Assembly: GCA_918797485.1 (NCBI GenBank)
Contig: CAKKNE010000003.1
Span: forward strand, 620,001-684,000
Length of the DNA: 64,000 bases
Direction: 5' to 3'
Origin: Pelagomonas calceolata
Lineage: Eukaryota; Sar; Pelagophyceae; Pelagomonadales; Pelagomonadaceae
The translations under genes and the position numbers were made by a program. Below the pieces are notes generated by a model. It made no database searches. It saw only the letters and a program-made list of their open reading frames with translations, and was not told where the DNA came from. Below are positions 19,767 to 63,757 of this stretch, one piece after another (position 1 is the first letter of the stretch; each line of letters starts with the position of its first letter).

Positions 19767-21842
19767 CTAAGCGTCGGCCGCGGCGACCTCCGCGGCCGCG
19801 GCCGCGTCGGCGTCGGTCGGCGGCGCCGGAGGCGGCGCCGCGGCCGGCGGCGCCGGCGCCGGCAGCGCGCCGCCGGCGGCGTAGTGGCCGCTCGAGCCGT
19901 AGTAGTGCTGCGGCGGGAAGGCGAAGGGCGTCGTCGCGGCCGAGTAGGGCGCCGCCGGCCAGAAGCCGGAGCCCCCAGGCGTCGCCGGCGGCGCCGTGTT
20001 CTCGGCGCCGGCCGCGGGCGCGCCCAGGGGCGGCTTCTCCGTCCCGACGGCGGGGGGCTGTGCCGCCGCCACGTTGTGCGTCGGCGACGCCACCCCGGTG
20101 AGGCTCGTGCGCCGCGCCGGCGCCGGAGCCGTCGCGCCGTCGGTCGCGGGGGGCGGGCCGCCGGGGGTCGTAGTGGCGCCCGCGGCCGTGTCCGTAGCGG
20201 CGACGGCCGGAGCCGCCGTCGTGGTCGCGGGCGTGGGCGGCGGCGGCGGTCGAGGCGGCGCGGCGCAGATGTAGGGCGGCGGCGCGCCAGGGTACGGCGA
20301 GGGCGGCCACGGGCTCCCCTGCGGCGGGTAGCCCCCGAACGCCCCCGGCGGCGGCGCGAACGGGCTGTAGCCCGGCGGCGCGCCGTAGCCGTAGCCCCCG
20401 GCCGTCCAGTGCGGCGGCGTCGCGTGCGGGTGCGGGCCGCCGTAGGGCGACAGGCCGCCGGGCGGCGCGCCGGCCGCGGCGTGCGGCGGCGGCGGCGGCG
20501 TCGCGGTCGCCGCGGTCAGCGCCGGCGTGCCGGGCGCCGCGCCGTGCGCGCCCGGCGGCGTGCCAGCGGCGCCGGCGCCCGGCGGTAGCGCGTGCGGCGG
20601 CGGCGGCGGCGCGTAGGCGTAGTGCGCGGGCGGGTAGCCCAGCGGCGGGCCGTAGCCGTAGCCGCCGTAGGCCCCGCCGAAGGGCGGCGCGTAGCCGTAC
20701 GGCGGGTAGCCCGGAGGCGCGACGGCGTGGAACGGCGGCGGGCCGCCCGGCGCCTGCTGCTGGGCCTGGGCCTGGGCCTTGACGATCGCCGTCGCGAGCC
20801 CCTGCATCTGGTCGGTCGCATGCGACGCGCCGCCGACGCCCTTCTTCTTCTTCGTCGCGCTGCCCTTGATCCCGAGCGCCGCCAAGTCGTCGACCGTGGG
20901 CAGCGGCGCCCCCGGCCTCAGCACGAAGCCGTCCGTCGCGACGTCCCTCTCCAGCAGATCCTCGAACACGTCGGCCCGCGCGTCGTCCTTCTCGAGCAGC
21001 TCCCTAATCCGGAAGGCCGCGGCCGGGTCGATCGACGGCAGGTCCGCCGCGGCCCACCTTTCCGAGTCCTTCGACGCCTCCGAGAGTGCGAGGACCCAGT
21101 CCGTCCGCTCCTTCCGCTCCGCCCGCTTCTCTTCCCCCGTCTTCGCGACGGGCTTCGGCGCCAGCGCCGCGGCCAGCGTCGGCGCGGCGACGGCGCCGGC
21201 GCTGGTCAGGCCCGTCTCGTCCACAAAGGCCGCCACCGCCGTCGCGGGCGTCGCGACCCAGACCACCTTGCCCTCCTTCCGGTCGAGCTCCACGAGATCG
21301 GCGCTCCGTCCGACCACCCGCACGCGCACGAGGCTCAGCTGCTTCTTCGTCGCGCCGGCGACGAGACCCAAAGTGTCTCCGGCCACATCCGCCGCTTTCA
21401 TCAGGTCCTCGAGCCTCACAGATCGTACGCCGCTCTGCTCGTCGAGGACGACGCACGTCCAGGGGATCGAGCGCGTCCGGGGGGGGTCCAGCGGCGCTAG
21501 CGTCCAGCTATTCCCGCCGCGCGCCATCGTGCACTTCACGACGACGGCGCACCCCTTCGTCCGCTTCTCCAGCGCCTTGGCCGCCGCCTCGGCCTTCTTC
21601 TTGGCCGCCGCCAAGGCGCGGGGGTCGTCGAGCGCCTCGGCGTCGGACGCCTCGGCGTCGGACGCCTCCTCTTCGAGGGGCTCCGCCGCAGCGTCGTCGC
21701 CAGCGGCGCTTGAGTCGTCGCCGTAGCCGTCGTCGAACTCGCCCGCGCAGTCTTCGGTGTCGGTGATCGTTCTAGCCCGTTTTGGCGCCGCGGCGGCCCT
21801 CGCCGCGGGTGGTCTGCGGTCCGTGGGCTTGGTTCTAGCCAT
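19767..21842 (-). CDS. Pro/Gly/Tyr-rich low-complexity protein, 691 aa
   Basis: Start MARTKPTDRRPPAARAA at 21840-21842. The N-terminal basic, then Asp/Glu-Ala region (EEASDAEASDAEALDD) leads to an ordered segment of ~130 residues (CAVVVKCTMARGGNSW, IPWTCVVLDEQSGVRSV, KEGKVVWVATPATAV) that may fold like a small beta-rich reader domain. The C-terminal ~350 residues are low complexity with repeated GYPPYGYAPP-, GYGYGPP- and APPPPP-type motifs, a composition typical of phase-separating RNA-associated proteins. No known family was recognised. A nuclear or RNA-granule role is inference from composition. Confidence 0.65.
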   Translation of the reverse strand: MARTKPTDRRPPAARAAAAPKRARTITDTEDCAGEFDDGYGDDSSAAGDDAAAEPLEEEASDAEASDAEALDDPRALAAAKKKAEAAAKALEKRTKGCAVVVKCTMARGGNSWTLAPLDPPRTRSIPWTCVVLDEQSGVRSVRLEDLMKAADVAGDTLGLVAGATKKQLSLVRVRVVGRSADLVELDRKEGKVVWVATPATAVAAFVDETGLTSAGAVAAPTLAAALAPKPVAKTGEEKRAERKERTDWVLALSEASKDSERWAAADLPSIDPAAAFRIRELLEKDDARADVFEDLLERDVATDGFVLRPGAPLPTVDDLAALGIKGSATKKKKGVGGASHATDQMQGLATAIVKAQAQAQQQAPGGPPPFHAVAPPGYPPYGYAPPFGGAYGGYGYGPPLGYPPAHYAYAPPPPPHALPPGAGAAGTPPGAHGAAPGTPALTAATATPPPPPHAAAGAPPGGLSPYGGPHPHATPPHWTAGGYGYGAPPGYSPFAPPPGAFGGYPPQGSPWPPSPYPGAPPPYICAAPPRPPPPPTPATTTAAPAVAATDTAAGATTTPGGPPPATDGATAPAPARRTSLTGVASPTHNVAAAQPPAVGTEKPPLGAPAAGAENTAPPATPGGSGFWPAAPYSAATTPFAFPPQHYYGSSGHYAAGGALPAPAPPAAAPPPAPPTDADAAAAAEVAAADA

Positions 21843-36984: not shown

Positions 36985-39852
36985 ATGGGCTCAGGCGCGT
37001 CGACCGACAAGAAACCGCTCACCGAAGTAAGGCTGAAAAGCGAGGTCGGCGTCCTCTTCGACGACAAGGCGAAGCGAGCCTTCGATGCCGCCGCCACTGA
37101 GGACCCGGACGGCACGCGCACGGTGCCGTGGCCCACGATAGAAGCCCACGCCAAGGAGCACGACGAGCGCGCGCTCGACCCGCGGAAATGCATGTTTCAC
37201 AACCTGAAGGCCTTCAAGGCCGCGCGGGAGCAGATCGACGAGATCGCGCGCGTGCACATCAAGGGCGCGGTGCGCGAGATCCCGTGGGTGGGCAAATCTC
37301 TCGGAGACGAATGTCGGCAGTGCGGCCTCGACGGCGAGCCGGCCGCGTCGCTCGACGCGCTGTACGAGGTCGCCGCGCTGGCGAGGGTGCAGTTCGAGGA
37401 GATTATGACGGCCGCGTGCCCTGAAAGCGGCGTAAAGCTGATGTTTGCGCCGCTGAAGGGCCGCGACCGCGCCGGTGCCAAGGCGCGCGACGAGTACGCC
37501 GATAAGACGGCTCCGTGCTACTCGTGGCTCTTCGACATTACGCGCGGTGCTGCGCTGTGCCAGACGGAGGACGCCCTGGTCAGTTTGTACAAGGCGCTCG
37601 AAGCGGACGACCGTGTGGATATCGTGCGGACGAAGAACAGGTTCGCGCCGCCGCTCTTCAACGGCTACCAGGACATTCTGATGAACGTCGCCGTGAAAGT
37701 CGAGAACGTGAAGCACTTGTGCGAGCTCCAGATCCATCTCATGCCGATCAAAGAGTCGGAGGCGCTGCACCAGAGCCACACGGTCTACGAGTATTTCCGG
37801 TCGTTTTTCTTGGGCAATTCAGACGCCGTCGCGCAGCGGCTCGAGATGTTGTGCGAGTTACCCGTCGACGACGCTTCCGATGTGGATGAGTTGGTGGACC
37901 ATGTGCTCGGGTCCGACGCGGACGCGAATTTGCTCGAGGGGCTCTGCGAGTTGCTCGAGTCGATCCAGGAGTCCGCGGGCGTCGTGAAGGTCCGGCAAGG
38001 CATCTTGGCTGAGAAGGAGCGCGCGTTCGGTGCGAGGAGCAAGGAGGTGGGTGAGGCGCTGTGGGATCTTGGGCTCGCGTACGGGGATCTTGGCGACAAT
38101 GCCAAGAGGCTTGAGGTCTTGGAGCGGGCGCTCCCGATCTACGAGCGCGAGTACGGTAGCGACCACGCGGAGGTGGCCAGCGTGTTGAATAGTCTCGGGA
38201 ACGCGTACGGCTCATTAGGCGACCACGCGAAGGGTCGAGACATGCTGGAGCGCGCGCTCGCGATCAAGGAGCGGGCGTATGGCCGCGACCACCCGGAAGT
38301 GGCCCCCACGCTGAACAACCTCGGGAACGCGTACGGCTCTTTAGGCGACCACGCGAAGAAGCGAGACGTGCTGGAGCGCGCGCTCGCGATCAAGGAGCGG
38401 GCGTACGGTCGCGACCACCCGGAAGTGGCCAAGACGCTGATGAACCTCGCGAACGCGTACGGCAAATTAGGCGACCAGGCGAAGAAGCGAGACGTGCTGG
38501 AGCGCGCGCTCGCGATCAAGGAGCGGTCGTACGGCCGCGAACACACGAGCGTGGCCCTCACGCTGGGGAACCTCGGGAACGCGTACGGCGAATTAGGCGA
38601 CCACGCTAAGGAGCAAGACATGCTGGAGCGCGCGCTCGCGATCAACGAGCGGGCGTACGGCCGCGACCACCCGTCAGTGGCCAGCGTGTTGAATAGTCTC
38701 GGGAACGCGTACGGCTCATTAGGCGACCACGCGAAGGGTCGAGACATGCTGGAGCGCGCGCTCGCGATCAAGGAGCGGGCGTATGGCCGCGACCACGCGG
38801 AAGTGGCCCGCACGCTGACGAACCTCGGGGACGTGTACCGCATGCTTGGAGACGACGCCAAGGAGCGAGACATGCTGGAGCGCGCGCTTGCGATCAAGGA
38901 GCGGGCGTACGGACCCGATCACGTTGAGCTAGCCAACACTCTCTGGAATCTTGCCGATTCGTACGGCGCCCTCGGCGACACAGCCAAGCAGCAGGAAAGT
39001 TTAAAGCGCGGACTCGCGATCAATGAGAGAACGTACGGACCAGATCATTCCGAGACGGTCGATTTCCGGAAGGAGCTCGCTTCCCTGCTGCACGCCGCGG
39101 CGGCGAAAGGCGACGTCGACGCGATGACCCAGGTTCTGGACGGCGGCGCCGCTGTCGACCAAGCTAGAGGGGACGGCGCGACGTCGCTATATCTCGCCTG
39201 CCAGAAGGGCCACACCGACGCGGCGCGGCTGTTGCTGGAGAAAGACGCGGAGGTCGATCGCGCGACGAAAAAGGGCGCAACGCCGCTATTCATCGCCTGC
39301 TTCAAGGGTCACGTCGACGCGGCGCGGCTGGTGCTGGACAAAGGCGCCGAGGTCGACCGGGCGACGGAGAAGGGTGCGACGCCGCTGTACATCGCTTGCC
39401 AGAAGGGCCACGTCGACGCGGTGCAACTGCTGCTGGACAACGGCGCTGAGGTCGACCGGGCGGACGAGGACGGCTGGACGCCGTTGCTCGTCGCCTGCGA
39501 ACACGGCCGCGTCGACGCGGCGCGGCTGTTGCTGGAGAAAGGTGCAGATATCAACAGGGCGATGGAGGGCGGCGATACGCCCCTGTTGATCGCGTGCTAC
39601 AACGGCCACGTAGACGCGGCGCGGCTATTGTTGGACCGCGGCGCCGACGTTCACCACAGGGCCGATTCAGGTCACACTTGCCTGAATACCGCCTGCTGCG
39701 AAGGTCACATCGAGATCGTTCGGCTTTTGTTAGATAACGGGGCTGTCGCTGACCTGGACGTAGCAGACGAAGGCGGCGACACGCCGAAGGCCAACGCGGA
39801 GTCCCAGGGCCACGCGGCCGTCGTCGACCTCCTCGCCCAATACACCGAGTAA
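36985..39852 (+). CDS. RelA/SpoT-like, TPR and ankyrin protein with myristoylation motif
   Basis: 955 aa. The start MGSGASTDKK is a good N-myristoylation signal. Residues ~140-275 resemble a RelA/SpoT nucleotidyltransferase-like domain: FAPLKGRDRAGAKARDEYAD, then LFDITRGAALC, then RTKNRF, then FNGYQDILMNV and HLCELQIHLMPI. The NGYQ and ExQxH positions match the fold; catalytic competence is uncertain. Residues ~350-695 are about eight kinesin-light-chain-type TPRs of 42 residues (ALAIKERAYGRDHPEVA, NLGNAYGSLGDHAK). Residues ~700-950 are ankyrin repeats (ATPLYIACQKGHVDAVQLLL). The middle TPR units are nearly identical at DNA level. Likely a membrane-tethered scaffold. Its stop is 17 bp from that of the convergent AFG3-type gene. 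Confidence 0.8.
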   Translation: MGSGASTDKKPLTEVRLKSEVGVLFDDKAKRAFDAAATEDPDGTRTVPWPTIEAHAKEHDERALDPRKCMFHNLKAFKAAREQIDEIARVHIKGAVREIPWVGKSLGDECRQCGLDGEPAASLDALYEVAALARVQFEEIMTAACPESGVKLMFAPLKGRDRAGAKARDEYADKTAPCYSWLFDITRGAALCQTEDALVSLYKALEADDRVDIVRTKNRFAPPLFNGYQDILMNVAVKVENVKHLCELQIHLMPIKESEALHQSHTVYEYFRSFFLGNSDAVAQRLEMLCELPVDDASDVDELVDHVLGSDADANLLEGLCELLESIQESAGVVKVRQGILAEKERAFGARSKEVGEALWDLGLAYGDLGDNAKRLEVLERALPIYEREYGSDHAEVASVLNSLGNAYGSLGDHAKGRDMLERALAIKERAYGRDHPEVAPTLNNLGNAYGSLGDHAKKRDVLERALAIKERAYGRDHPEVAKTLMNLANAYGKLGDQAKKRDVLERALAIKERSYGREHTSVALTLGNLGNAYGELGDHAKEQDMLERALAINERAYGRDHPSVASVLNSLGNAYGSLGDHAKGRDMLERALAIKERAYGRDHAEVARTLTNLGDVYRMLGDDAKERDMLERALAIKERAYGPDHVELANTLWNLADSYGALGDTAKQQESLKRGLAINERTYGPDHSETVDFRKELASLLHAAAAKGDVDAMTQVLDGGAAVDQARGDGATSLYLACQKGHTDAARLLLEKDAEVDRATKKGATPLFIACFKGHVDAARLVLDKGAEVDRATEKGATPLYIACQKGHVDAVQLLLDNGAEVDRADEDGWTPLLVACEHGRVDAARLLLEKGADINRAMEGGDTPLLIACYNGHVDAARLLLDRGADVHHRADSGHTCLNTACCEGHIEIVRLLLDNGAVADLDVADEGGDTPKANAESQGHAAVVDLLAQYTE
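38173..38796 (+). repeat. Tandem TPR units of 126 bp with a 504-bp duplication
   Basis: Units of 126 bp encode 42-residue TPRs. The 120-bp stretch 38173-38292 recurs apparently unchanged at 38677-38796, exactly four units (504 bp) later, whereas the units between differ. This indicates a recent four-unit duplication or gene conversion. Confidence 0.85.
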
Positions 39853-45179: not shown

Positions 45180-48100
45180 ATGCCGAGCTTCCTGCGCCCA
45201 CTCGGCGACAACGCCGGCCAGCCGCTGACGCTACGGAAGCGGACGACGTCGCTGGGACGGGCCGAGGACAACGACGTGCAAGCTTTACCGAGAAGTGTCT
45301 CGGGCTACCACGCCGAGGTCGAGCTGCTCGATGGAGGCGGCGCCGTGCTCCATGATCGGGGCGCGGACGGTTCTGGATCTAGATTCGGGTCTTTCGTCGG
45401 TGACGACCACTTCACGGGCGGCTGGCGGGAGGTGTGCCACGGCGACATCATCCGGTTGGGCACCTTGCAGCACGGCGTCGCGTTCCGCTATGAAGAGTCG
45501 GAGGGCGCGCCACTCCCACCGCCTCCTAGACCAGAACAATTTATTACGGAGCCCGAGACGCTCCAGAACGCGGCCAAACGGGCGCTGCGGGAGCGTAATG
45601 GCTCACCAAAAGAAAGAGCTGTCAAGGACGAGGTGCCGGCTGCCGGTCGTAGATCAAAAACAGATGTTCCTGTATCTGTGTCCTACCAGGTCGCGGACGG
45701 CATTCGCGTCGACGACCAGAATAACAATTTGATCGGGCGTAATAGAATCAACACGTCGTATGATGATGACCTACCTCTGCGAGAACAGAAGCGCCAGGAG
45801 CTCGAGAAGGAGCGGTTGAGGTTAGAAGAAGAAAAACGGCAGCGCGACAACGAGAATAAATTAGCGCAGTTGCGGGAGAAGCGCAAACCTGTTAACGAAT
45901 CGTTGTCACCTCGAGGAGCTCCACTGAAACATTCTATAAGATATGAGGATCTAGAAGACGAGGCCCCGGAGCGGCCGTCGCAAGTACAGGAAGTAGACGA
46001 CGCGCCGTTCTCGCCACCGCTGCCGGACCCGCCCTCGCTACCTTCTCTGGCAGAACGGTTCGAGTCGCCGCGACTCCCTGCGGTTGTCCATCAAGGCTCC
46101 GTTTTGGTAGTCGAGGAAGAACAGCCACCGGCGCTACCGCCGAAAGAGCAAAACGCCGTCCTGGAAGCGAGGGAACGCGCCGCGGCGTCGATGCGGCGCT
46201 TGAACCAAGCGTTGGCCGGTGTGAGACCGTTCAGCGACCTGCAGAGCGACCTCGTACCGGGCCCGGCGCCCGCCGCCGGTGACGAGATCGAGGAGCTCCG
46301 TAGTAAAGTCCAGCAGCTGACCAACGGCATGGACGAATCATCTCGTGAAGAATTGAAGGCGTTGCAGGAGCAGATTTCCGCCCTCGCCCCGAAGGTCGAC
46401 GGGCTCGTGGCCAAGGAGGGTACCGGCGTCGATGTTCAGGAGCGCATGGAATCACTCAGGGAGGAGCTCTGTGCGGCTCTGCGGGATGACGTGCGCCAGA
46501 TGCTCAAGAAGGAGAAGGCGCGCGTCGAAGAGGACGAGCCGTCGACGGCCGCGCAACTCAGAGAGATGAAAGCGTCCATGGACCGCGACCGCAAGGAGCG
46601 GCGGCGCGAGCGCAAGCGCGACGACCACAACGCCCTCAAAGAAAAAGTGAACGAGGTGCTCCTGAGGCAGCAGATCGGCGGTGGAACGCGGCCCATGATC
46701 GGAGGTGGCGTGAACCTCGAGGAGCTCCAGGCCAACCTCGAGCAGCCCATGATCGACCTCCTCCAAAGGTTGGACGCGCTATCTACGGATGTCAAGTCCC
46801 TGAAGAATGGGACCCCGAAGAAGTTACAGGGCGAGCTCTCGGCCTATAAAAAAGCTGTTGCTGAATTGGCGTCGAAGGCGCCGTCGTCGGCGCCCAATGA
46901 CGAGCTGATCCACCGCATGCGCGCGCTCGAGGAGGAGGTCCGCCTCTTGCGGGAGGAGGATGTATCGCCTCCCACGCCGTATCGCACGGCTGTGGTAGAA
47001 GCTCCAGCTCCCAGGTTCCAGCCCGACGCGATCATGAGTCCCGCGAAGCCGCGACGAAGTTTAAGAGGCGTCGCGCGCGGCTTGGGCGCCTTCGGGCGGC
47101 GCTCGCAGGCGGGCGACGACTACCGGCGGGATCTAGCTGCTGTCAGGCGCGAGGTCGACGCGGCGCATGAAAGAATAGCCCAAGTCGACCCCCAGGCTTT
47201 CGAGAGGATGAAGAGCGACCTGGAGAAGTCTCATCGGGAGGCGGAACAGCGCCACGATTCGTTATTGAAAGCTCTGACGGCCAATCAGCCCATTGACGTA
47301 TCCGGTCTGAACGCCGGCGTGCAGAAAGCGCATCAACACGCCGTGGACCATCTCCAGAACATCCCCGGCGTTTCTGTGGAGGATGTCGACGCCGTGAAGA
47401 AGGTGCTCGAGACCGGTACTCATACCATGGAGCAGCGCCACGAGAACTTGTATGCGTACCAGGCGCCCGTGCCGGCGCCGTCCATGTCAGTCGTGCTGCA
47501 GGACCCCGTATCGCACGGCCAAGCGGCGACGTCCTACTGGTCGAAGCTCCGCGCGAACGTCCGCTTGGGCAAGGCTTCGGGTCAGGAAGTACAAAAAGAA
47601 CTACAGAAGCAGCGCGCTGCATTGGACAAACGCCTCGAGTCGGACAACGACCCTCATCTCCAAAGGTTGGACGAGGAATTGAGGAAGACGGAGCAGGCCG
47701 CCATTGCCACGCCGACGAAGCGCGCGGCGCTCCAACTCGCTTTTGACGCGTGCGACGGGAATGACGTGGAAGCCTACAAGGGAGCTTTGTCTGATGCATT
47801 GAAGGATCCGGCGACGGACATTAACGAGGTGCGCCAGCAAGTTGAAAGTTTAAATGATCCTATCCTCCGAGAAATGGTCCGGGCGCCACAAATAGCGCAG
47901 GACCGGCGGCGGTCGCTCTGTGCCGCGTTGAAGGCGGACCTCCGCGAGGACAATGATGATGCCAAGAGGAGGGCGGCCCGCGGCCTCAAGCTCTACGCGA
48001 AGGAGGCCCACGTCCAGCTGGTCGACGCGCCTCCGGAACTGCGAGAAAAGATCCGCACTGAAGTTAATTCCCTGATCGAAGTGGCGACGGGAGACGTCCG

Positions 48101-51100
48101 AGAAGGTTTATCTTTACTGTTAGAGGACTGTTCAGAAGTAGCGGCACCAGCAGCCGCCCCGGAATCCCGGAGGCTCGACGCGCTGGCCGACCTCCAGAAT
48201 GAGATGGCCGCAGTCGCCAACGGTGCAGATGCGTCTAAAGTAAAGCGCAAGTTCCGGGCCTACGCCAAGAGAGCTAGACTGGCGCACCGCGACGAGGTCG
48301 AGCGGGAGCTAGCTCAAATAAAAAGGCAGGTCGCGCAATGCGCCGAGGCCGAGGCGCCCGTCGCGGCCATTTCTGCTGCTTTAGATGAGTTCGACGCCAT
48401 CGCCGAGGCGCCGGCGCCCGCTTTAGAAAGAGAAACGACGTATGCCAAGGTCTTTGATGATCTGGAGACGTTGCGGCGGGAAGTGTCCAGTAAAACGAGA
48501 TCCGATGAAGCTGTTTCGGAAGCGGTGCGAGCGTTGGAGTCTCGATTACAAACCTACTTCGTATCCTTAAGGGCGGATGACGTCCAACCGGAGCGCGACG
48601 AGTCCGAGCTCGACGCGCTGCGAACTCAAGTCCGCGAGTTGAAGGCGGCACGCACGCTGGCGAAGTTCGGCTTCGGGAAGAAGCGCAAACCGACGAAGGC
48701 CAAGGAGGACGCGAAGACCCTGGATGCCTTGGACGCGAAGATCCAGGCGGTGCAGGCGGAGCTAAGGAGTGCTCGGCCCGTCGTCGAGGCGCCCGCGCCG
48801 CCTCCACTTGCATCGCCCGTGCGGCGCGTGCTGTCGGCTGCTTTACAGAATAACCAGGACGCGGCTCCCGCCGACGACGCGTCGGTGGCCAAGTCGGACG
48901 GCCTGAAAAGTGCATTGTTAGCGCAGGCCCAGGCCCTGTCCCAGCTGACGAACGAGATCCGCCAGGACCGTTCTTCGAAACGAGGCTCCTTCTCAGACAA
49001 ACCCCGGAGGCAGGCCTGGGGCGCGCCACAAGACGATCTTAACGAGCTGGAGGAACAATGTCTGCGACTGCTGGACGAGGACTACGGCACCTCGACGGAA
49101 CAACCCCTATCTTCCTTAGTAGAAGCCCTGCGTGCGTTACGAGCGGTTCAAGATCGAACGAAGGCGCGAGCCGAGCTGCGGTTGTTGCGCCAGCGGTCCG
49201 AAGAGCTGCGAAGGGTCTCGACGGGCATCGAACAGTACGACCACCTGTGTTCCCAAGTCGATGCGTTCGTCGATCAAATCCGCAAGTCCGTCAAGCGGCC
49301 GGTGCCGGCGATCCGGTTTTCTCAGGACGACCTCACTCCGCCCCACTCGCCATCACGTAGACGCTCCTTCGAGACGAGTCCGCCGCAATCTCCTACACGC
49401 TCGGAACTGTCCGTGACCTTCCGCGATGATAGATTCAGGCAGGACCGCTCGGAACGGCAACAACGGCTCACGGAGGACATCGAGGGCCAGGCGCGCTTAT
49501 TACAGGAGGAGCTGGCCCATGTCCGGGAGGACAACTGTGCCACGGCGATTGATGTTATACGAGGTTTACACGACTTGGTCGACCAATTGAAGGCGCCTCA
49601 TTCCTTGCGTGATCTCGCGGCTCAGTTACGGGATCATGCGGACTTTATCCGGGAAGAACTCCAGCACTCGTCGTCAGCCGAAGAAGATGAATATAGGGAA
49701 GGGTTGAGGACCCTTGAGAATTTAGTGATACAACAATTGCGAAGTCTGCAAGCGACCCCGTCGCCGTCGGAACGCGCCTTGCACCAACAGCTCAAGCAGC
49801 ACCAGGGGAACTTGTCGGAAGCCATGGGCTATCTACGAGAAAGTACGGCGCGAGACACGGCGGCCGACGAGTTGCGCGCCTTGAATTCGAAAGTAGGGGT
49901 CCTGGCGCATTCGCACTCCGAGACCAGTGAACGTACTGTGCGAGCGGTGGACGCGGCCCTAGCGAAGCACGCCGAGCGATTGGAGAGGGCCCAAGTCCCC
50001 TTGAACGACGTCCACTCTCGTAGAGAGCTAGATGATCTACGACATTTGGTGGACGCGGCTCGGAGCCATGTGGGCGAAGCGACAGAAAGACAAATTAGTA
50101 GACACGCCCAAGCGTTGCGCGAGGAGATGGCCCAGACCATAAGGAACGCGCGCCACAAGGAAAGAGTACAGAATGAACTGAAAGAGTTGAAAGCACAAGT
50201 GTCGGCATTGCAAATGAACCCTCGAGATGCGTCTACGTTGTTAAGGGACTTCAAGAAGCAGTTGTCGGATCATGTCGAGCAGATCGCCGATAAGTTAGCA
50301 CGAACGCAGAACCAGGAGACGCGCGGGCACCTGCACGAAGTGCGATCGGAGCTGAAGTCGGTCCAAGCCCTCGCGTCGACCAATTCCTTGGAACAATCTA
50401 TCGCTAGGCATGCGTCCCAACTACGAAGCGAGCTGAATCAGAACAACGCGCGGGAGGCGGCGGACGAGGTGCGGCTGCTGAAGGATCGCCTGTCGAAGGT
50501 CGACTCTGTGCCTTCGACACTGGAAGTTCAGTTGAGAGAGCACTACCAGCAAGTATCGGAGGCGCTGCGGCGGAACCATGATTCTGATTTACAACAACTG
50601 AAAGTGGAGCTGAAGGAGTTGCGGGAGCAACTGAAAAGACCGGTCGACGATCATCGCATGAATAAACTCGAGCAGAGGATGGAGGCCCACGCTACCGCTC
50701 TCAGAGATGATTTCCGGCGGTTGCGGGAGGACGGCGTGTCGCAACGGACGCAACTCGAGATCCAGGGTCTGCGGGATACTTGTGCCGAACTAAGTTCCTA
50801 TCGCAAGGAGATGCCCGATACATTACGAAGAGAATTACAGCAGCACTCGGAGGTCATTCAAGGTAAGACAGAGTTTAGTGAGTTAAGGAAGGAGTTGCAA
50901 GCGGTCCGCGAGTTATGCGGGTCTACTCAGAGAAACTTAGAACAAGCCATCCAGCAGCACGCCGTGGCCTTGCGCGACGAGATGCGCCATCTACGTGAAA
51001 GTAGTGGTGCTCGTGGTCGTGCGGGTGACGAATTGAGGGCTTTGAGGGACAAGGTGCGCGAGACGACGAATGACGACGTCGTCCGGAACCTGGAGCGACA

Positions 51101-53756
51101 ACTGGCCCAGCACGCTTCTAGAGTTGAGAGAGCTCAAGAAACAGCTGACAGAGAGGTGAAAAGTGAACTGAAGGCTCTGGGGGAGCGCATCGAAGCTGTT
51201 AGAAACGCCGCGCAAACCAGAGAGTCTCTACAGCAAAATGTCGAAGCGAACGCGCAGTTACTGAGGGAGGAATTGCGGTCGCTGAAAGTGAATAATGACA
51301 CAATCAACGCCCTGAAATCTCAAGTCGAGGAGCTCCGGCACCGCGGCGAGCACGGCCTCATGGAACGGTTATCGTCCGAGCTCGGGAGTCATACGCAATC
51401 ATTGAAGGAGGCTATTTTGTCTGGGCAAGGTGGTTCGGAGTTGAGGGACCTCCAGAGGCAATTGCTCGAGCTGCGGGAAGCGTCGAAGCGGGACCTCGAA
51501 CTGATCATCGCCCGAACGCCCAAAAAAGAGGACATCTCGTCGCTCATCGAGGAGAAGACCTCAGCTCTCAAAGAAGACATCACGCGCATGCGCGACTCCT
51601 TCGCGCGGGATGCTGCGTCCGACGAAGTGCGGGCGCTGAACGAGACGGTCCGCGACCTGAAACAGCGGTCGTCCGCGGACGATTTGAAGCTGCAGCGGCT
51701 CGAGGAGCGATTGAGGGCGGCGGACTCTTCTCACGTCGTACAGAACACCCAGTTGGATCAGTTGAGGGAAGAAGTCAAGCGCCAGCTGTCGGCGCGGCGG
51801 GACGAGTCCGTCGAAGCGAAGCTTGCGGAGCACGCTTCACGTCTGCGGGAGGAGCTCCAGCATGCATTGTCCGGAGCGGCGAACAACACGTCCACTGAGT
51901 TGAAGAGCCTGGCCGCGAAGATCTCGTCCCTCGAGAGCGGTGGTGATAAAGTAGCGGCGGCGTTATCTTCGCTAGAGAAGCAGCTCAGCGGCCATTCCAA
52001 AGCATTGCAGGACACGGATCTCACGACTTTAAGAAGGGAGGTCGAAGCCGTGAGGGCCGACGCCGCGCGTGTCCGTGAGGACAGGTTCCAAACGCTGCAA
52101 CGGCAGATCGACGGGAATTCGGCCCAGGCCCAGTTCCTCGAGACGCAGAAGCAGTTGAATGACGTCAAAGAACGTTTTGAGGCGAAGGACAAGAGCATCG
52201 AAAAGCTGTCGAAGGAGCTTTCCGAGTTGCGACGCGCGAAAGAAAACGAAGCGCAAGCGGCCCAAAGGGCCGAGAAATTAGCTTTGGAACAGTCGGTCAA
52301 ACAGAGGGACGCGGAGATCGAGTCGCTCAGGAAGCAGTTGTCGGAGGACGATCTGAGCACGCCGCGCGACCGGGGGGCGCTGTTCGCGTTGCGACGCCAG
52401 TTGGCTCGAGCATCTAGAAGAGATGCGAGGAGGTTAAGAAGGGACCTGGATGATTTGCGAAGAGTAAGGGCGGCGGACGCGCGGGCAGCTCAAAGCGCTT
52501 TGAACGAGATCGCCCGAAGTCTGTCGGGCGCGCCGGCGCCGGCGCCGTCCTTGCGACGTGATTTAGCGGAGTTGAGAGAAGCTCAAAAGCGCGACGCCGA
52601 CATTTCGAGGAGGGCCATCGACCAGATCGAACGGCATTTGGACGGCACCGCCGTCGCCGAGGCGCCGGCGCCGGCCGACCTCGATTCCATCGCGAGGCAG
52701 GGTGATAGGGCTTTCGAGAACGCGAATCTCGATGCGGTGCGACGGCGGCTGCGAGAACTCGCGGAGGCGGCGCAGCGCGGTTCCATGCGAGCGGATCGGC
52801 TCGAAAGAGATGCATTGCGACGGTTGAGCGACAAGGCAGAGAACAGCGAACTGTTGGACGCCGTCTTAGATCAGGTACAAACTTTGAATCAGGCGGTCTT
52901 CACGCCGAGGTCTGATGAAGAGGACACGCCGCGAACAGACGCTCTCAGAAGGCTGACGTCCATCGGTCGGCGGGACGAGCTCGCCGACCTAAGAAAAGAG
53001 GTCGAGCGCCTGAAGCAAACGTCGGTGATCGGTGACGACATGGCGCGCGACGACACGGATCCGGAACGGGACCGAGCGTTAATACGCTCGTTGCGGAGGC
53101 AATTGGTACGGAGCGACGCGGAGCGCGATAGGGCCGTGCGGTCATTAGCTCGGAATGCGAAGGGCGCCGACGCCGTCAATAACTACGCCGAGAAGCAGAG
53201 GGAAGCGCTTACGAAACTTGAGCACGAAATTGATATATGGCGGGAGCGGGCCGAAAACAGTGAAAGGAACTGGGCCCAGCTCGTCCAGGAGCGCGACGCG
53301 GCGTTGAATGCCGCTCAACGTGAAGCGGAGGCTTCGGCGTTGCGAGACGAGCAGTGGGCGGAGCAGCTTCAGGAGCGGGACTTGCGGGTCGAAGAATTGG
53401 CGACGCAACTGGCGGAGCTTGAGGAGGGCGGGTCGGCTGCCGAGGCCGCTAGAGCGTTACGCGACGCTCTGTTGGAGCAGCAGGCGGCGGATCTTAATAG
53501 GATGAGAGCCGCGGCGGCTCGAGCGCGCGAGGCGCTCGCGGAGAGAGATGCCGTCGAGCGGCGCGCCGGAGACGCCGACGGCGCCGCCTGGCGCGCGACC
53601 GCTCAGATGAATCAGACTAAATTGCTGGCGGCACAGGCCGCGCAGGGCTCGGTCGGCGACGTCGTGGCCGCGCGCGCGGACGCGGACCGGCTCAATCTCG
53701 AATTGGCTAAAACGTTGTCGTCGACGACGCGGAGCGGCGTGCTGCGGGCGAGGTGA
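45180..53756 (+). CDS. Giant FHA-domain coiled-coil protein, 2,858 aa
   Basis: A single uninterrupted 8.6-kb frame. Residues ~18-105 form an FHA domain (TTSLGRAEDNDVQALPRS, then VSGYHAEVELLDGGGAVLHD), with the GR and SGYH positions needed for phosphothreonine binding. Residues ~150-330 are Pro/Asp-rich and probably disordered. From ~370 almost to the end are long heptad-rich helices with recurring motifs such as HASRLREELQHA, ELRDLQRQLLELR and LQQHSEVIQGK. Two basic Ser/Pro patches (KPRRSLRGVARGLGAFG, SPSRRRSFETSPPQSPTRSE) could be phosphorylation or microtubule-binding sites. The end is ...LSSTTRSGVLRAR. Length and composition recall centrosomal, basal-body or flagellar-rootlet scaffolds. 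The absence of introns over 8.6 kb is notable. Confidence 0.8.
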   Translation: MPSFLRPLGDNAGQPLTLRKRTTSLGRAEDNDVQALPRSVSGYHAEVELLDGGGAVLHDRGADGSGSRFGSFVGDDHFTGGWREVCHGDIIRLGTLQHGVAFRYEESEGAPLPPPPRPEQFITEPETLQNAAKRALRERNGSPKERAVKDEVPAAGRRSKTDVPVSVSYQVADGIRVDDQNNNLIGRNRINTSYDDDLPLREQKRQELEKERLRLEEEKRQRDNENKLAQLREKRKPVNESLSPRGAPLKHSIRYEDLEDEAPERPSQVQEVDDAPFSPPLPDPPSLPSLAERFESPRLPAVVHQGSVLVVEEEQPPALPPKEQNAVLEARERAAASMRRLNQALAGVRPFSDLQSDLVPGPAPAAGDEIEELRSKVQQLTNGMDESSREELKALQEQISALAPKVDGLVAKEGTGVDVQERMESLREELCAALRDDVRQMLKKEKARVEEDEPSTAAQLREMKASMDRDRKERRRERKRDDHNALKEKVNEVLLRQQIGGGTRPMIGGGVNLEELQANLEQPMIDLLQRLDALSTDVKSLKNGTPKKLQGELSAYKKAVAELASKAPSSAPNDELIHRMRALEEEVRLLREEDVSPPTPYRTAVVEAPAPRFQPDAIMSPAKPRRSLRGVARGLGAFGRRSQAGDDYRRDLAAVRREVDAAHERIAQVDPQAFERMKSDLEKSHREAEQRHDSLLKALTANQPIDVSGLNAGVQKAHQHAVDHLQNIPGVSVEDVDAVKKVLETGTHTMEQRHENLYAYQAPVPAPSMSVVLQDPVSHGQAATSYWSKLRANVRLGKASGQEVQKELQKQRAALDKRLESDNDPHLQRLDEELRKTEQAAIATPTKRAALQLAFDACDGNDVEAYKGALSDALKDPATDINEVRQQVESLNDPILREMVRAPQIAQDRRRSLCAALKADLREDNDDAKRRAARGLKLYAKEAHVQLVDAPPELREKIRTEVNSLIEVATGDVREGLSLLLEDCSEVAAPAAAPESRRLDALADLQNEMAAVANGADASKVKRKFRAYAKRARLAHRDEVERELAQIKRQVAQCAEAEAPVAAISAALDEFDAIAEAPAPALERETTYAKVFDDLETLRREVSSKTRSDEAVSEAVRALESRLQTYFVSLRADDVQPERDESELDALRTQVRELKAARTLAKFGFGKKRKPTKAKEDAKTLDALDAKIQAVQAELRSARPVVEAPAPPPLASPVRRVLSAALQNNQDAAPADDASVAKSDGLKSALLAQAQALSQLTNEIRQDRSSKRGSFSDKPRRQAWGAPQDDLNELEEQCLRLLDEDYGTSTEQPLSSLVEALRALRAVQDRTKARAELRLLRQRSEELRRVSTGIEQYDHLCSQVDAFVDQIRKSVKRPVPAIRFSQDDLTPPHSPSRRRSFETSPPQSPTRSELSVTFRDDRFRQDRSERQQRLTEDIEGQARLLQEELAHVREDNCATAIDVIRGLHDLVDQLKAPHSLRDLAAQLRDHADFIREELQHSSSAEEDEYREGLRTLENLVIQQLRSLQATPSPSERALHQQLKQHQGNLSEAMGYLRESTARDTAADELRALNSKVGVLAHSHSETSERTVRAVDAALAKHAERLERAQVPLNDVHSRRELDDLRHLVDAARSHVGEATERQISRHAQALREEMAQTIRNARHKERVQNELKELKAQVSALQMNPRDASTLLRDFKKQLSDHVEQIADKLARTQNQETRGHLHEVRSELKSVQALASTNSLEQSIARHASQLRSELNQNNAREAADEVRLLKDRLSKVDSVPSTLEVQLREHYQQVSEALRRNHDSDLQQLKVELKELREQLKRPVDDHRMNKLEQRMEAHATALRDDFRRLREDGVSQRTQLEIQGLRDTCAELSSYRKEMPDTLRRELQQHSEVIQGKTEFSELRKELQAVRELCGSTQRNLEQAIQQHAVALRDEMRHLRESSGARGRAGDELRALRDKVRETTNDDVVRNLERQLAQHASRVERAQETADREVKSELKALGERIEAVRNAAQTRESLQQNVEANAQLLREELRSLKVNNDTINALKSQVEELRHRGEHGLMERLSSELGSHTQSLKEAILSGQGGSELRDLQRQLLELREASKRDLELIIARTPKKEDISSLIEEKTSALKEDITRMRDSFARDAASDEVRALNETVRDLKQRSSADDLKLQRLEERLRAADSSHVVQNTQLDQLREEVKRQLSARRDESVEAKLAEHASRLREELQHALSGAANNTSTELKSLAAKISSLESGGDKVAAALSSLEKQLSGHSKALQDTDLTTLRREVEAVRADAARVREDRFQTLQRQIDGNSAQAQFLETQKQLNDVKERFEAKDKSIEKLSKELSELRRAKENEAQAAQRAEKLALEQSVKQRDAEIESLRKQLSEDDLSTPRDRGALFALRRQLARASRRDARRLRRDLDDLRRVRAADARAAQSALNEIARSLSGAPAPAPSLRRDLAELREAQKRDADISRRAIDQIERHLDGTAVAEAPAPADLDSIARQGDRAFENANLDAVRRRLRELAEAAQRGSMRADRLERDALRRLSDKAENSELLDAVLDQVQTLNQAVFTPRSDEEDTPRTDALRRLTSIGRRDELADLRKEVERLKQTSVIGDDMARDDTDPERDRALIRSLRRQLVRSDAERDRAVRSLARNAKGADAVNNYAEKQREALTKLEHEIDIWRERAENSERNWAQLVQERDAALNAAQREAEASALRDEQWAEQLQERDLRVEELATQLAELEEGGSAAEAARALRDALLEQQAADLNRMRAAAARAREALAERDAVERRAGDADGAAWRATAQMNQTKLLAAQAAQGSVGDVVAARADADRLNLELAKTLSSTTRSGVLRAR

Positions 53757-56212: not shown

Positions 56213-57220
56213 TTACCCTCTAATCTTCGCCACGCGGTCCGCAAACCCCACGTGCCGCGACCCGCTCGCGGCGCCGAGGTAGCGCACGCCGACGATGAGG
56301 TCCCGCAGCAGCGTCCCCGCCAGCTCGGGCAGGAGCGCGTTCGTCGCGCCGCGCGTGGCGCCTTGCGTCGCGTGCGCGCCGCGGCCCACGAGGCCCAGGT
56401 AGAACACGTGGCGCGGGCCGACGTCGTTCGCCGGCGCGCGGTGGAACAGCGCCGCGTCGTACAGGACCGCGGCACCAGCGGCGTCGTAGGCGCGCAGCGC
56501 GGGCATCCCCGGCGGGTCGGGAAGGCGCCCGCCGAACGCGTCGCGCACGTGCGCGTGGAAGGTGGGCGCGTGCGTCCCGGGCAGCAGCTCCGTCGCCGCG
56601 ACGGCGCGCTCGTCGAGGTTCACCAGCAGCACGAGCTGGCGCGTGTTCGGCCGGTTCGCGTCGGCGTCGGCGTGCCAGGGCTGTGCCGCGGCGCCCGCGT
56701 CCGAGACGAGGCAGCCGAGCTCGACGATCTCCGGCTCGTCGCCGGCAAACGCGGCGCGGCACGCGTCGTAGGCCACCGCTAATTCGCCGACGACGTCGCG
56801 CACGGCCGGCGTGAGGTCGAGCGCGACGGCGTGGCGGTGCTCGGGGCTCCGGATCTTCGCGAAGCGGGCGTTCGCGGCGGCGAGCGGCAGCTTGAGCAGG
56901 CGCTCGACCTCGTGCCGCGCGTGCGTCCGCAGCGCGTTTCTCCGGTCGCGGTCGACGAGTGGGCCCAGCGCCGCGAAGCCCCGCTCCGCGAGCTGGCGCG
57001 CGCAGTCCTCGGCGAGCTCGCCCGGCGTCTGCGGCCGCGGCGGGGCTGGTGGTGGTGCTGCGCCGCAGGTCAGCTTGTGCGCTTGCTTCCAGTGCGTTGC
57101 TTGACAATCGCGGCTGCAGTAGACGACGGCGCGGCAGCGGCCGCAGCGCTTTGTTGCGGCGGGCTTGTGGCACAGGGCGCAGGGGTCGTGCGTTTGTGGG
57201 ATGATCTGGCGCGCCGCCAT
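56213..57220 (-). CDS. MYND-finger 2-oxoglutarate/Fe(II) dioxygenase (PhyH-like)
   Basis: 335 aa from ATG 57218-57220. Residues 13-52 are a MYND finger (CALCHKPAATKRCGRCRA, YCSRDCQATHWKQAHKLTC). The rest resembles phytanoyl-CoA dioxygenase-type enzymes. QPWHADAD supplies the HxD iron ligands, LLPGTH lies after the second strand, and LFHRAPANDVGPRHVFY supplies the distal His and the Arg that binds 2-oxoglutarate. All three iron ligands appear present, so it is probably active. Substrate unknown; a protein hydroxylase recruited by MYND is one possibility (inference). Its stop is 38 bp from that of the MYND-RING-TPR gene. Confidence 0.82.
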   Translation of the reverse strand: MAARQIIPQTHDPCALCHKPAATKRCGRCRAVVYCSRDCQATHWKQAHKLTCGAAPPPAPPRPQTPGELAEDCARQLAERGFAALGPLVDRDRRNALRTHARHEVERLLKLPLAAANARFAKIRSPEHRHAVALDLTPAVRDVVGELAVAYDACRAAFAGDEPEIVELGCLVSDAGAAAQPWHADADANRPNTRQLVLLVNLDERAVAATELLPGTHAPTFHAHVRDAFGGRLPDPPGMPALRAYDAAGAAVLYDAALFHRAPANDVGPRHVFYLGLVGRGAHATQGATRGATNALLPELAGTLLRDLIVGVRYLGAASGSRHVGFADRVAKIRG

Positions 57221-60102: not shown

Positions 60103-60663
60103 TCTCCTTTGCGCTACGTGTGTTGCGTGCTATTTTGCGCGGCGGCTGGCGTGCTATTTTTTGGCAGCAGTGTGTTGGGCAGGGCTTTTGAGCGCGGCGG
60201 AGCGGCGAGCGTCCAGCGCGGCTGCTCCGGCGTTGGCGTGATATGTATTTTTCACTAACGGCGAGCTGCTCCGCGTTGCGCGCTCACGGACGGCGCCGGC
60301 TTTGTGTGTTTGCTAGTGTCTTACAGCCGCTAGATCAAAAGTCAAAGAGTCTCAATGAATCTATCCTAGTCGTTGGGAGTAGTGTAAGCGGCTACCTTCA
60401 CAATTCTTTTACATCGACTCCTCCCCCGCTGTCGATTGTACAAGCAGCAAGGGAGGCTAAATAAATGCAAATACGACGACGACAGTGCTCAAACAACCTT
60501 CGCAGGATAACTGATAGCCCATAGCGACACATTACTGAATAACTTGGCTCCGCATGCAGCAGCGCCTCAAAACAAAGCTTTGGAGAGCCTCTCCGCGCGC
60601 TTGCCGTCAGCGCGACGCCGACGCGCATCGATCACGCAAACAACCACGCAGGTCTCGAACACC
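60103..60663. other. Divergent intergenic region
   Basis: 561 bp between the small acidic gene (minus) and eIF3j (plus). It contains GCTAG element copy 8 at 60312-60333. A frame open from 60544 precedes the better ATG at 60664 and is probably 5' UTR. Confidence 0.5.
60312..60333. promoter_or_regulatory. Dispersed GCTAG-capped promoter element, copy 8
   Basis: The plus strand reads GCTAGTGTCTTACA, GC, CGCTAG. It lies about 330 bp upstream of the eIF3j ATG. Confidence 0.65.
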
Positions 60664-61206
60664 ATGGCGGACAGCTGGGAGGACGACGACGCCGACGTCA
60701 CGCTGCCCGGCGCCGCCGCGCCGCCGGCCGCGTGGGACGACGAGGAGGAAGAGGAGGACCTCGCGAACAACGACCCGCCCCCGAAGCCGCCGCCGGCGCC
60801 GGCCAGCGAGAAAAAAGTCGTCGCCGAGAAGGACCCCGACGCCGTCGTCATCAAGTTGGACAACATGAACGACCACCTCAAACTCGTACCCTTGTTACTC
60901 GAGCGCTTCGAAGCCAAAAAGTCCAAGGACAGCCACGTCTTCATGTTCGTCAAGGAGCTCCTCAAGAAGACCGAATCACGGTTCTCGGCCGCCGAGTGTG
61001 GGGACTTGGCTATTATGGCAGGGAACTACCAAAAGACGAAGCAGCAGGCCATCGACAAGCCCACCGAGTCGAACGCCAAAAAAAAGTCCAAGAAGAAGTC
61101 CAAGAAAGAAAAACTCGAGCAGAAGAAGAAGGTCGACGACTTGTTCGGCGTCGCCGAGGCCGGCGAGTACGACCACTACGAGGACCAGTACGACGACTTC
61201 TTCTGA
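60664..61206 (+). CDS. EIF3J: Translation initiation factor eIF3 subunit J
   Basis: 180 aa from ATG 60664 (MADSWEDDDADVTLPG). The acidic N-terminus with the WDDEEEEEDL motif is the segment that contacts other eIF3 subunits. The helical middle (DNMNDHLKLVPLLLERFEAK, VFMFVKELLKKTE) and Lys-rich tail (KKKSKKKSKKEKLEQKKK) end in the family-typical YDDFF. Slightly shorter than animal eIF3j (~258 aa), mostly in the first part. It regulates 40S mRNA-channel access. A GCTAG element lies upstream. Confidence 0.88.
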   Translation: MADSWEDDDADVTLPGAAAPPAAWDDEEEEEDLANNDPPPKPPPAPASEKKVVAEKDPDAVVIKLDNMNDHLKLVPLLLERFEAKKSKDSHVFMFVKELLKKTESRFSAAECGDLAIMAGNYQKTKQQAIDKPTESNAKKKSKKKSKKEKLEQKKKVDDLFGVAEAGEYDHYEDQYDDFF

Positions 61207-61298: not shown

Positions 61299-62138
61299 CT
61301 AGTCGACGTAGTCCGCCTTGACCTTGCGCCCGAGGTGCCACGCGCTCGACGAGAAGAGCGCGACGTTCACGGAGCAGAGCATGTAGTTGATCGGGTTCAC
61401 GAGGAGCGCGTACCTCGAGAAGAACGCTCCGGTGAGCGTCAGCGCCGTGTACTGCGCGAGCGAGATCTTCTCGACGGGCCGATCCAGCTCCATCATCGAC
61501 GCGCCGGAGATGAGCCACTTGCTCATGGGCGCCCAGAAGTGGACCGTGAAGGGCCCGGCGGCCGCGCCCGCGAACGTCGAGACCGGGCCGAGGTTTGCGG
61601 CGACGAGCGCCGACTGCAGCGTCGGCCCGGCGACGACCATGCCACCCAGCGCCGCGGCGCCCACCCCGGACTTCATGAGAATGTCCTGGACCTCCTCGTC
61701 CTTGCCCTGCGACGTCTTGTACTCCACGGCTCTCCGCATCTGGTTGAACTGGGCGACGACGTTTGAGCCGTGGCATGCAGCTAACAGGAGGTTCTGGGGC
61801 TTGACGATGATGGCCCACCGGCAGAACAGGGACGAGTAGATGATCATGACGGGTGTCATCGTCATCGAGATTTTTTCCGGCGAGGAGAACTGGGCGTCAT
61901 AAATCGCCGCGCCCGTCATGCCCCAGCCCGCGAGCGCGCCGAGGCCGCCCCAGAATTCCGCGCTCGACCACCAGCCCGGTTTCGCCTCCGGCGCGGCGGC
62001 CTTCTCCGCAGCCTTCTCGGCCGGCTTCTCTGATAGTAAGCGCCGCGGTGCGCGCTGAGCGCTGCGCTGCGACGCGCGGGCGAGTAGCGCACGCGTGCCG
62101 CTCGCCGCGGCGCGGCTGGCCAGCCTGCTGAGCATCAT
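61299..62138 (-). CDS. Single-chain mitochondrial pyruvate carrier (MPC1-like + linker helix + MPC2-like)
   Basis: 279 aa from ATG 62136-62138. Residues 1-35 are an Arg/Ser-rich mitochondrial presequence (MMLSRLASRAAASGTRALLA). Residues ~61-140 match MPC1: GMTGAAIYDAQFSSPEKIS, then MIIYSSLFCRWAIIVKPQNL, then CHGSNVVAQFNQMRRAVEY. Residues ~157-190 are an extra hydrophobic segment (GVGAAALGGMVVAGPTLQSA). Residues ~199-275 match MPC2: HFWAPMSKWLISGASMMELD, RPVEKISLAQYTALTLTGAF, FSRYALLVNPINYML. In animals, fungi and plants MPC1 and MPC2 are separate ~110-150 aa proteins that form a heterodimer; here both halves are in one frame with no intron. Expected to import pyruvate across the inner mitochondrial membrane. 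Confidence 0.88.
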   Translation of the reverse strand: MMLSRLASRAAASGTRALLARASQRSAQRAPRRLLSEKPAEKAAEKAAAPEAKPGWWSSAEFWGGLGALAGWGMTGAAIYDAQFSSPEKISMTMTPVMIIYSSLFCRWAIIVKPQNLLLAACHGSNVVAQFNQMRRAVEYKTSQGKDEEVQDILMKSGVGAAALGGMVVAGPTLQSALVAANLGPVSTFAGAAAGPFTVHFWAPMSKWLISGASMMELDRPVEKISLAQYTALTLTGAFFSRYALLVNPINYMLCSVNVALFSSSAWHLGRKVKADYVD

Positions 62139-62624: not shown

Positions 62625-63246
62625 ATGGTCCAAATCCACGAAGTGGCCGAATCCACGAAGGAAGCAACGGACGAAGGGGCCAAGGTCACCACCGTGTCGG
62701 AAGGCGCCGACGCCACGGCGGCGCCGCCGGCCGAAGACAAAAAGTCGCTATTGATGAGCCTCGGCCTGCCGGAGGAAGTGGCCGACGCGGCCATCGCGAG
62801 CGACGGTGACGGCTTCAAGGACGGGGCGTCGCGGGTGTCCATGTTCTACTCCCTGAAAGTTAACGACGACGCCAAGGCTGAATGGAAGGATCACTACCTA
62901 AATTACACAAAAGGCGCCAAGGCCTCGAAGGGCCACGTCAACGTCTCGCACTCGTACAACGAGGAGACGCGCGAGGTGATCTGCATCGAGACTATCACTG
63001 GGAAGGATGCGATGAGCAACCACATCGGCAACTGCTTGCCGCACTACGCTCAAATGCTCGGTTGTGGCGCAAGAGGCGGCGTCCGTGTTCTTGGTCGCTT
63101 CTCGCGTCTCAACGTTACTCTACACACAGGTTGTCATGAAGGAAATCATCTGCGTCTGCGACCCGGCGGAAATGGACTGGTTCAAGGCGTCCCTCGCGGC
63201 CTGGCAGCCGGAGAGAATGGTCTGCACGCCCGACCACTGCCCCTGA
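62625..63246 (+). CDS. ABM-like (dimeric alpha/beta barrel) protein with a short intron
   Basis: Start MVQIHEVAESTKEATDEGAK at 62625. Residues 1-60 are low complexity. The core (SMFYSLKVNDDAKAEWKDHY, VNVSHSYNEETREVICIETI, NHIGNCLPHYAQML) has the strand-helix-strand order of antibiotic-biosynthesis-monooxygenase-type barrels. The frame then breaks. Excising 63081-63129 continues with VVMKEIICVCDPAEMDWFKA and ends VCTPDHCP, giving 190 aa. Alternatively a small indel near 63058 would give a longer product. Likely a small homodimeric stress or metabolic protein; activity unknown. The stop lies 31 bp from the convergent FYVE gene stop. Confidence 0.6.
63081..63129 (+). other. Probable 49-bp intron in the ABM-like gene
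   Basis: GTCCGTG ... TACACACAG, phase 0 on both sides, with a pyrimidine-rich 3' half and a CTCAAC branch-like motif. It is the only GT in the right phase near the frame break. Unusually short, so a sequencing indel is the alternative. Confidence 0.5.
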
Positions 63247-63277
63247 CGAACACTAGTAACATTCCACAGTACGATTA

Positions 63278-63757
63278 TCAACTAGGCCACGCGTCGACCA
63301 CGCCCACGTTTGTCGTCGCCGGCGGCGGTGCACTCGTCCGCCGCGCGACGCGACCTCGTATGCGCGCATCCACGACGGCCGCGCAGCGCGAGCACGCGCG
63401 CACGTAGCCCTCCACGGCCTCGCGGTCGAGCGACGCCGCCGCGCGCTGTACTGAATCGGGGCCGTCGTGGCCCTGGCAGAACCGCAGGGGCAGCCGATGA
63501 TTCGAGCAGCCGTCGCAGACGCAGGCGCCGCAGCGCCGGCAATGATGCCGCCGTCGCAGCAGAAAATTGAAGTGCTTGCCGCAGATCATGCACGCCGGCG
63601 TCGACCCGTCGGGCACGCGCGTCAGGCCGCGCGTCGCGAGGTGCTTCCGCCACGGCGCGTCGAGCGGGTCGCCGTCGCCGATCGGGGCGGGGAGCGGCGC
63701 GGCCACCGGCTGCGGCGACTCGCGGCCGGCGTCGGCCAAGCTCTGGTAGCCAGACAT
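63278..63757 (-). CDS. FYVE-domain protein, 159 aa
   Basis: Start MSGYQSLADAGRESPQPVAA at 63755-63757. Residues ~45-120 are a FYVE zinc finger: STPACMICGKHFNFLLRRRH, HCRRCGACVCDGCSNHRLPL, and a final CSRC pair. The R(R/K)HHCR motif that reads PtdIns(3)P is intact as RRRHHCRRCG, and the expected eight Cys/His ligands are present. A long loop (GHDGPDSVQRAAASLDREAV) separates the last pair. The WxxD opening is degenerate (RVPDGSTPAC). N- and C-termini are short and disordered. Probably binds early endosomes as a small adaptor. Confidence 0.85.
   Translation of the reverse strand: MSGYQSLADAGRESPQPVAAPLPAPIGDGDPLDAPWRKHLATRGLTRVPDGSTPACMICGKHFNFLLRRRHHCRRCGACVCDGCSNHRLPLRFCQGHDGPDSVQRAAASLDREAVEGYVRACSRCAAVVDARIRGRVARRTSAPPPATTNVGVVDAWPS

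Follow-up and report, generated by a model that had tools for sequence, protein, structure and literature searches.

The human mitochondrial pyruvate carrier (MPC), as its structure is described in PMC12007569, has two protomers that share the same orientation in the membrane. The same description notes that SWEET and cystinosin carry an extra linking helix which is absent from MPC, and it names twelve residues around the human pyruvate pocket. When human MPC subunits were co-expressed, at least one group recovered mostly single subunits, according to PMC5823908. The side on which the MPC N termini lie is in dispute, having been assigned to the matrix in PMC6945462 and to the intermembrane space in PMC12007569. 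Some stramenopile glycolytic enzymes are reported to carry mitochondrial targeting peptides (PMC5715807), and Blastocystis is reported to be without MPC (PMC11115451).

Medrano-Soto et al. (2020) reported that several members of the MPC family have seven putative segments, arranged as 3+1+3 (PMC7176098). In C5K6B0 (2.A.105.1.8, TC 2.A.105), segments 1-3 were reported to align most closely with a homologue of MPC1 (46.7% identity) and segments 5-7 with one of MPC2 (55.3% identity) (PMC7176098). The authors favour a duplication, and their account leaves room for MPC1 and MPC2 having been fused, with the central segment inserted (PMC7176098). The idea of a single-chain 3+1+3 MPC is therefore already published, as a computational finding (PMC7176098). 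The initial annotation of the present locus had implied that such a protein was novel, a claim that is withdrawn here since MPC1-like and MPC2-like halves in a 3+1+3 MPC have been in print since 2020. No experimental study of a single-chain 3+1+3 MPC was found in the open-licence literature. We take C5K6B0 to be from Perkinsus, which is an alveolate by its taxonomic lineage. The main text of PMC7176098 does not name Perkinsus.

The gene presented here is predicted, with a probability of about 0.82, to encode a single-chain pyruvate/H+ carrier of 3+1+3 helices, which would be a complete mitochondrial pyruvate carrier in one chain. The features that are new in this case are a predicted intact composite binding site, the replacement of the human W82 by Phe, and an Arg-rich leader that is free of acidic residues.

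The gene and the surrounding window

The gene lies on the minus strand (61299..62138), from an ATG at 62138 to a TAG ending at 61299, and encodes 279 amino acids plus a stop codon with no intron seen. The plus strand of 61299-62138 is interrupted by stop codons, and the minus strand is open without a break for 279 codons. Thus, the single open frame of the initial annotation stands with its coordinates exact, and its strand is to be corrected to minus. Because the DNA is GC-rich, the open frame by itself is weak evidence for the gene, and homology is decisive. For example, the chance of 279 open codons is P = 0.0016 by a simple composition estimate, and another minus-strand frame over the gene has just one stop.

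GC3 was 0.82-0.98 across six segments of the gene, which included no non-coding control, and 0.94 in the segment between the two halves of the protein, termed the linker below. Splice donors were scanned with five patterns only (GTAAG, GTGAG, GTATG, GTGCG and GTRAG). The single match was at codon 16, in the leader, and no donor-like motif of these five patterns was found past that codon. Met codons 155 and 167 sit between the halves, with no stop ahead of either. No stop or frame break was found between the halves, which answers the possibility of a hidden break that had been raised at the outset; both halves are in one frame. The linker as an intron was rejected on the basis of its GC3, the lack of a stop and the lack of a scanned donor motif past codon 16. 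An alternative in-frame start at 62582 (427 amino acids) was also rejected. Its extra 148 residues have no Pfam match and lie in the gap before the divergent neighbouring frame, and we infer that the ATG at 62138 is the preferable start.

The window, meaning the entire 64-kb stretch of DNA analyzed, is eukaryotic by its other frames. Pfam identified tubulin-tyrosine ligase, SNF2 helicase, adaptor medium subunit, C2 and DnaJ proteins, as well as FYVE, MYND and TPR/ankyrin proteins and an FtsH-type protease. Pfam was run on 15 of the 17 window frames of at least 330 amino acids, and three of nine frames were without a match in each of two sets of nine. A tblastn search of the window with the 279-residue protein identified no second MPC-like site (best other match, E 0.49). 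The convergent neighbour at 60544-61206 (+), whose stop is separated from the MPC gene stop by 92 bases, matches weakly, with 21.5 bits against a cut-off of 28.9, the Pfam family eIF3_subunit, which corresponds to eIF3 subunit j. The divergent frame at 62625-63407 (+) has no Pfam match; 487 bases separate its ATG from that of the MPC gene, and the two genes may share a promoter region. Elsewhere, a 2858-codon open frame at 45180-53756 (+) has no Pfam match at E 1e-6, and a 955-codon frame at 36985-39852 (+) encodes TPR repeats followed by ankyrin repeats. The frame at 56213-57220 (-) encodes a MYND zinc finger together with a phytanoyl-CoA dioxygenase-like domain, a pairing that looks unusual. 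ARAGORN called a tRNA-Arg(gcg) at 20475-20547 (+), in GCG/GGC-rich DNA inside a long frame of the opposite strand, and this call is probably false.

Two halves and a composite binding site

Pfam MPC (PF03650) matched two stretches of the protein, residues 62-144 and 194-277, with 156.8 bits (E 2.4e-46; cut-off 27) and 49 residues (145-193) in between. Each half alone exceeded the cut-off, with 67.6 bits for the N half and 91.5 bits for the C half. The ranges first assigned to the leader, the MPC1-like half (61-140), the linker (~157-190) and the MPC2-like half (199-275) were correct within about ten residues.

The subfamily of each half was examined by phmmer against PDB sequences with residues 55-145 (N half) and 192-279 (C half) as queries. 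The N half scored 59.2 bits with MPC1L and 53.2, 53.0 and 49.4 bits with three further MPC1L/MPC1 sequences, four distinct sequences in all, and 14.0-16.5 bits with five MPC2 sequences; the other two of its 11 matches were unrelated chains (E >0.6). The C half scored 55.9-58.3 bits with six MPC2 sequences and 21.5-27.7 bits with four MPC1L/MPC1 sequences, and the remaining one of its 11 matches was an unrelated chain (E 1.5). Identity was 40 of 86 aligned residues between the N half and MPC1L, and 33 of 78 between the C half and MPC2. Compared with each other by BLASTP, the halves gave 27.7 bits (E 4e-06 for a single comparison), and their alignment has 18 invariant columns of 93 (21% identity).

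By these scores, which use a handful of PDB chains as references and no broad tree, the N half (residues 61-143; 61710..61958, minus strand) is MPC1-type and the C half (residues 192-279; 61302..61565, minus strand) is MPC2-type. The initial annotation had proposed MPC1-like and MPC2-like halves and had named their placement in one subfamily as the outcome that would speak against it; the halves fall in different subfamilies. A charged tail (residues 144-156; 61671..61709, minus strand), recognized from the list of charged residues, follows the first bundle. The protein is assigned to the MPC family (SLC54, PF03650), and its sequence indicates one unit of each type, MPC1 and MPC2.

An NCBIfam search of the protein returned no family. 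Relatives of the whole protein were sought in three collections, with none among 21 pattern matches in viral_contigs, none among 396 in genome_contigs and no match in phages. The two-half alignment as a query also gave no relatives in viral_contigs (29 pattern matches) or genome_contigs (49). These three collections are viral and prokaryotic, and misses in them tell little about eukaryotes.

Human residue numbers were carried over by script through the printed alignments of the PDB searches. Eight of the twelve pocket residues are identical. In the first half these are Y64, F68, L82 and H86 of MPC1L (Y101, F105, L119 and H123 here), and in the second half K49, T78, L96 and N100 of MPC2 (K207, T236, L254 and N258 here; N258 at 61365..61367, minus strand). 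The other four are changed: S35 is G71, L38 is M74, F71 is W108 and W82 is F240. Loss of H86 (MPC1L) or K49 (MPC2) is reported to abolish the pyruvate-induced stability shift fully (PMC12007569). This essential pyruvate-binding His and Lys are both kept, one in each half, as H123 (61770..61772, minus strand) and K207 (61518..61520, minus strand). Residues F68, L38 and L96 are described as having a modest effect (PMC12007569); besides L96, F68 is conserved and L38 is replaced by Met. Residue Y85, named in the docking of PMC12007569, aligns with a Tyr in the C half as well.

W82 of human MPC2 is described as part of the pocket and as stacking with inhibitors (PMC12007569). It is not kept here, where the position is F240 (61419..61421, minus strand); W82 is a residue of the human carrier and is not given as family-defining. 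A Phe is also present at this place in PDB 9o9t_B, an MPC2 chain, where it is perhaps engineered. The prolines of both H2-H3 loops (P77 and P91) are conserved. Among the residues that bend H1, G31, W36 and G37 of MPC1L and W50 of MPC2 are kept, and P32, G51 and G56 are replaced by G65, L209 and S214. In the first half the alignment also shows three additional residues close to where H1 begins, and because of them H1 bending may differ from that of the human carrier. Taken by alignment, the predicted binding site is intact and is a composite of both halves.

Linker, orientation and alternative readings

The uncharged hydrophobic linker (residues 157-191; 61566..61670, minus strand) contains a probable fourth TM helix at about residues 157-178, followed by an Ala/Gly/Pro-containing stretch. 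Residues 157-206 contain no Lys, Arg, Asp or Glu. This run of 50 residues is the longest uncharged run in the protein, and when the protein was shuffled 20,000 times, 61 of the shuffled sequences had a run of at least 50. The hydrophobic linker that had been proposed is supported, with a best 19-residue Kyte-Doolittle value of 1.53 for the linker region. The six conserved helices range from 0.55 to 1.61, and the linker exceeds five of the six when helix bounds are set by hand. Its insertion cost is the lowest among the seven segments. However, a window across the H2/H3 border of the C half (244-262) also reaches 1.52, and thus hydropathy alone cannot count helices. One straight helix along the full linker is unlikely, because the best windows (153-171 and 156-174) contain K156 and because the linker holds Pro172, Asn182 and Gly184-Pro185. 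Its hydrophobic moment of 0.09-0.11 is low, and thus it is predicted not to be amphipathic and to differ in this from the surface helices described for the N termini of human MPC. By its hydropathy and absence of charge, the linker looks like a candidate membrane span. AlphaFold2 run on the single sequence gave a pLDDT of 38.8 for the whole chain and 36.3 for residues 55-279, values too low to serve as evidence for helices. Matches of the linker to DUF6251 (17.8 bits) and PT-VENN (14.2 bits) were rejected as domains; they are below the cut-offs (26.5 and 20.3, respectively) and were read as a low-complexity match.

Since the human protomers share one orientation, a chain that joins them needs an odd number of crossings, and 3+1+3 would be the natural arrangement if the halves keep their fold. 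Loop charges give partial support for this orientation. With helix ends set by hand, every loop charge of the second half is on the side of the H1-H2 loop and C-tail. The first half is ambiguous, with six Lys/Arg and seven Asp/Glu on the corresponding side and five of each class on the opposite one. In the proposed mechanism the MPC1-type three-helix bundle would face the MPC2-type three-helix bundle as in the heterodimer, and the linking helix would take the chain back through the inner membrane, giving the two bundles a common orientation. Pyruvate would be bound between H123 of the first half and K207 of the second, and H123 would be protonated on the acidic side and deprotonated in the matrix. 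Pyruvate and H+ would thus be carried together, electroneutrally, through a rocker-switch motion, the mechanism put forward for the human protein in PMC12007569. The single TM helix in the linker, the pairing of the halves within one chain, the mitochondrial location and the transport of pyruvate are all presumed in this scheme.

The fusion could instead work as a two-chain dimer, or together with separate MPC1 or MPC2, with the MPC1-type half of one chain paired to the MPC2-type half of another and the linker acting only as a tether. The functional MPC is described as an MPC1-MPC2 pair (PMC12007569), and the 49 residues between the Pfam-matched parts leave room for an inter-chain swap. Pairing within the chain is nevertheless the simplest arrangement and fits the SWEET architecture, and we consider the two-chain form unlikely. 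Pro172 and Gly184-Pro185, together with the amphipathic and linker helices that human MPC2 is described as having right before H1 (PMC12007569), would suit a linker that is an altered N-terminal surface helix of MPC2 and does not span the membrane. The second half would then be inserted the opposite way, for which the ambiguous charges of the first half leave scope. However, the human helices have a polar side rich in Arg and Lys (PMC12007569), unlike residues 157-206, which are uncharged and have the low moment given above. In addition, the position of R39 in the helix-turn network of MPC2 is occupied by F197, and halves placed oppositely would not be expected to build the published binding site. 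This makes the surface helix quite improbable.

An assembly or gene-model artefact, in the form of two wrongly joined genes or of a retained intron read as the linker, would be consistent with a linker length of 105 bases, which is divisible by three, and with the Met codons between the halves. Against it are the unbroken frame, the linker GC3 of 0.94, the lack of a scanned donor-like motif beyond codon 16, and the report of a like architecture in other MPC proteins (PMC7176098), and an artefact is scarcely credible. The origin of the gene is a question independent of these alternatives. The halves could derive from one doubled MPC gene and have since diverged, as proposed for such proteins in PMC7176098, and they are recognizably homologous by the BLASTP comparison. 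Yet each half has 58-59 bits by phmmer to its own subfamily and at most 16.5 and 27.7 bits to the other, and the score between halves is only 27.7 bits, by a different program (BLASTP), with 21% identity; a doubling is very improbable. Because each half is nearer to its own subfamily than to the other subfamily or the other half, the comparison with these few PDB chains suggests that the MPC1/MPC2 split preceded the joining in the single-chain gene.

Import, significance and comparison with known systems

The leader (residues 1-36; 62031..62138, minus strand) is Arg-rich, with eight Lys/Arg, no Asp/Glu and a best hydrophobic moment of 0.68, and judged by composition it is likely a mitochondrial presequence. 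Cleavage may occur near the motif RRLLS. A mixed-charge Ala/Glu/Lys spacer (residues 37-60; 61959..62030, minus strand) ends in GWWSSA just ahead of the first bundle, and MPC1L is described as having amphipathic and linker helices at this place (PMC12007569). In yeast, the MPC subunits are described as having no presequence that is cleaved off, and Mpc2 and Mpc3 as imported by TIM22 and not TIM23 (PMC6945462); neither trait defines the family. Thus, the Arg-rich, acid-free leader suggests an import route other than that of the yeast MPC. That the single chain is the sole pyruvate carrier of the cell, imported through a cleavable presequence (TIM23) and not by TIM22 as the yeast MPC, is a tentative and rather doubtful proposal.

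A natural single-chain MPC would present a drug target as the product of one gene, with its two units in a fixed ratio. With its halves tied by one predicted crossing and a presequence-like leader at its start, it would make the disputed MPC topology testable on one protein. If the chain is the sole carrier and is imported by its presequence, it would be a natural test of that topology, and F240 may alter the response to inhibitors. The MPC family would also repeat the SWEET layout, as earlier proposed in PMC7176098.

The protein resembles SWEET and cystinosin (PQ-loop) in the 3+1+3 layout and linking helix predicted for it, and it may work in a SWEET-like manner in layout. It differs from them in having MPC-type pocket residues and no Pfam or PDB sequence match to either. 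Pfam up to E 1 returned just MPC and the sub-cut-off DUF6251, with no MtN3/PQ-loop family match, so by sequence the protein does not fall in the SWEET family (SLC50). SemiSWEET homodimers are given as the closest structural likeness of MPC in PMC12007569, and they differ in having two identical chains and no linking helix. Like the MPC1(L)/MPC2 heterodimer (human, PMC12007569; PDB 9giv, 8yw6 and 9mnw), the protein has both units and eight of the twelve pocket residues. Unlike the heterodimer, it is one chain, in which an uncharged linker precedes the MPC2 half, and it has an Arg-rich leader and Phe in place of W82. For C5K6B0 a duplication is preferred in PMC7176098, and the scores of the halves obtained here point to a joining of MPC1 with MPC2. 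C5K6B0 is described as a single chain with an MPC1-like half first, an MPC2-like half second and an extra segment in the centre (PMC7176098), and the present protein matches it in its two halves and in having a candidate central span.
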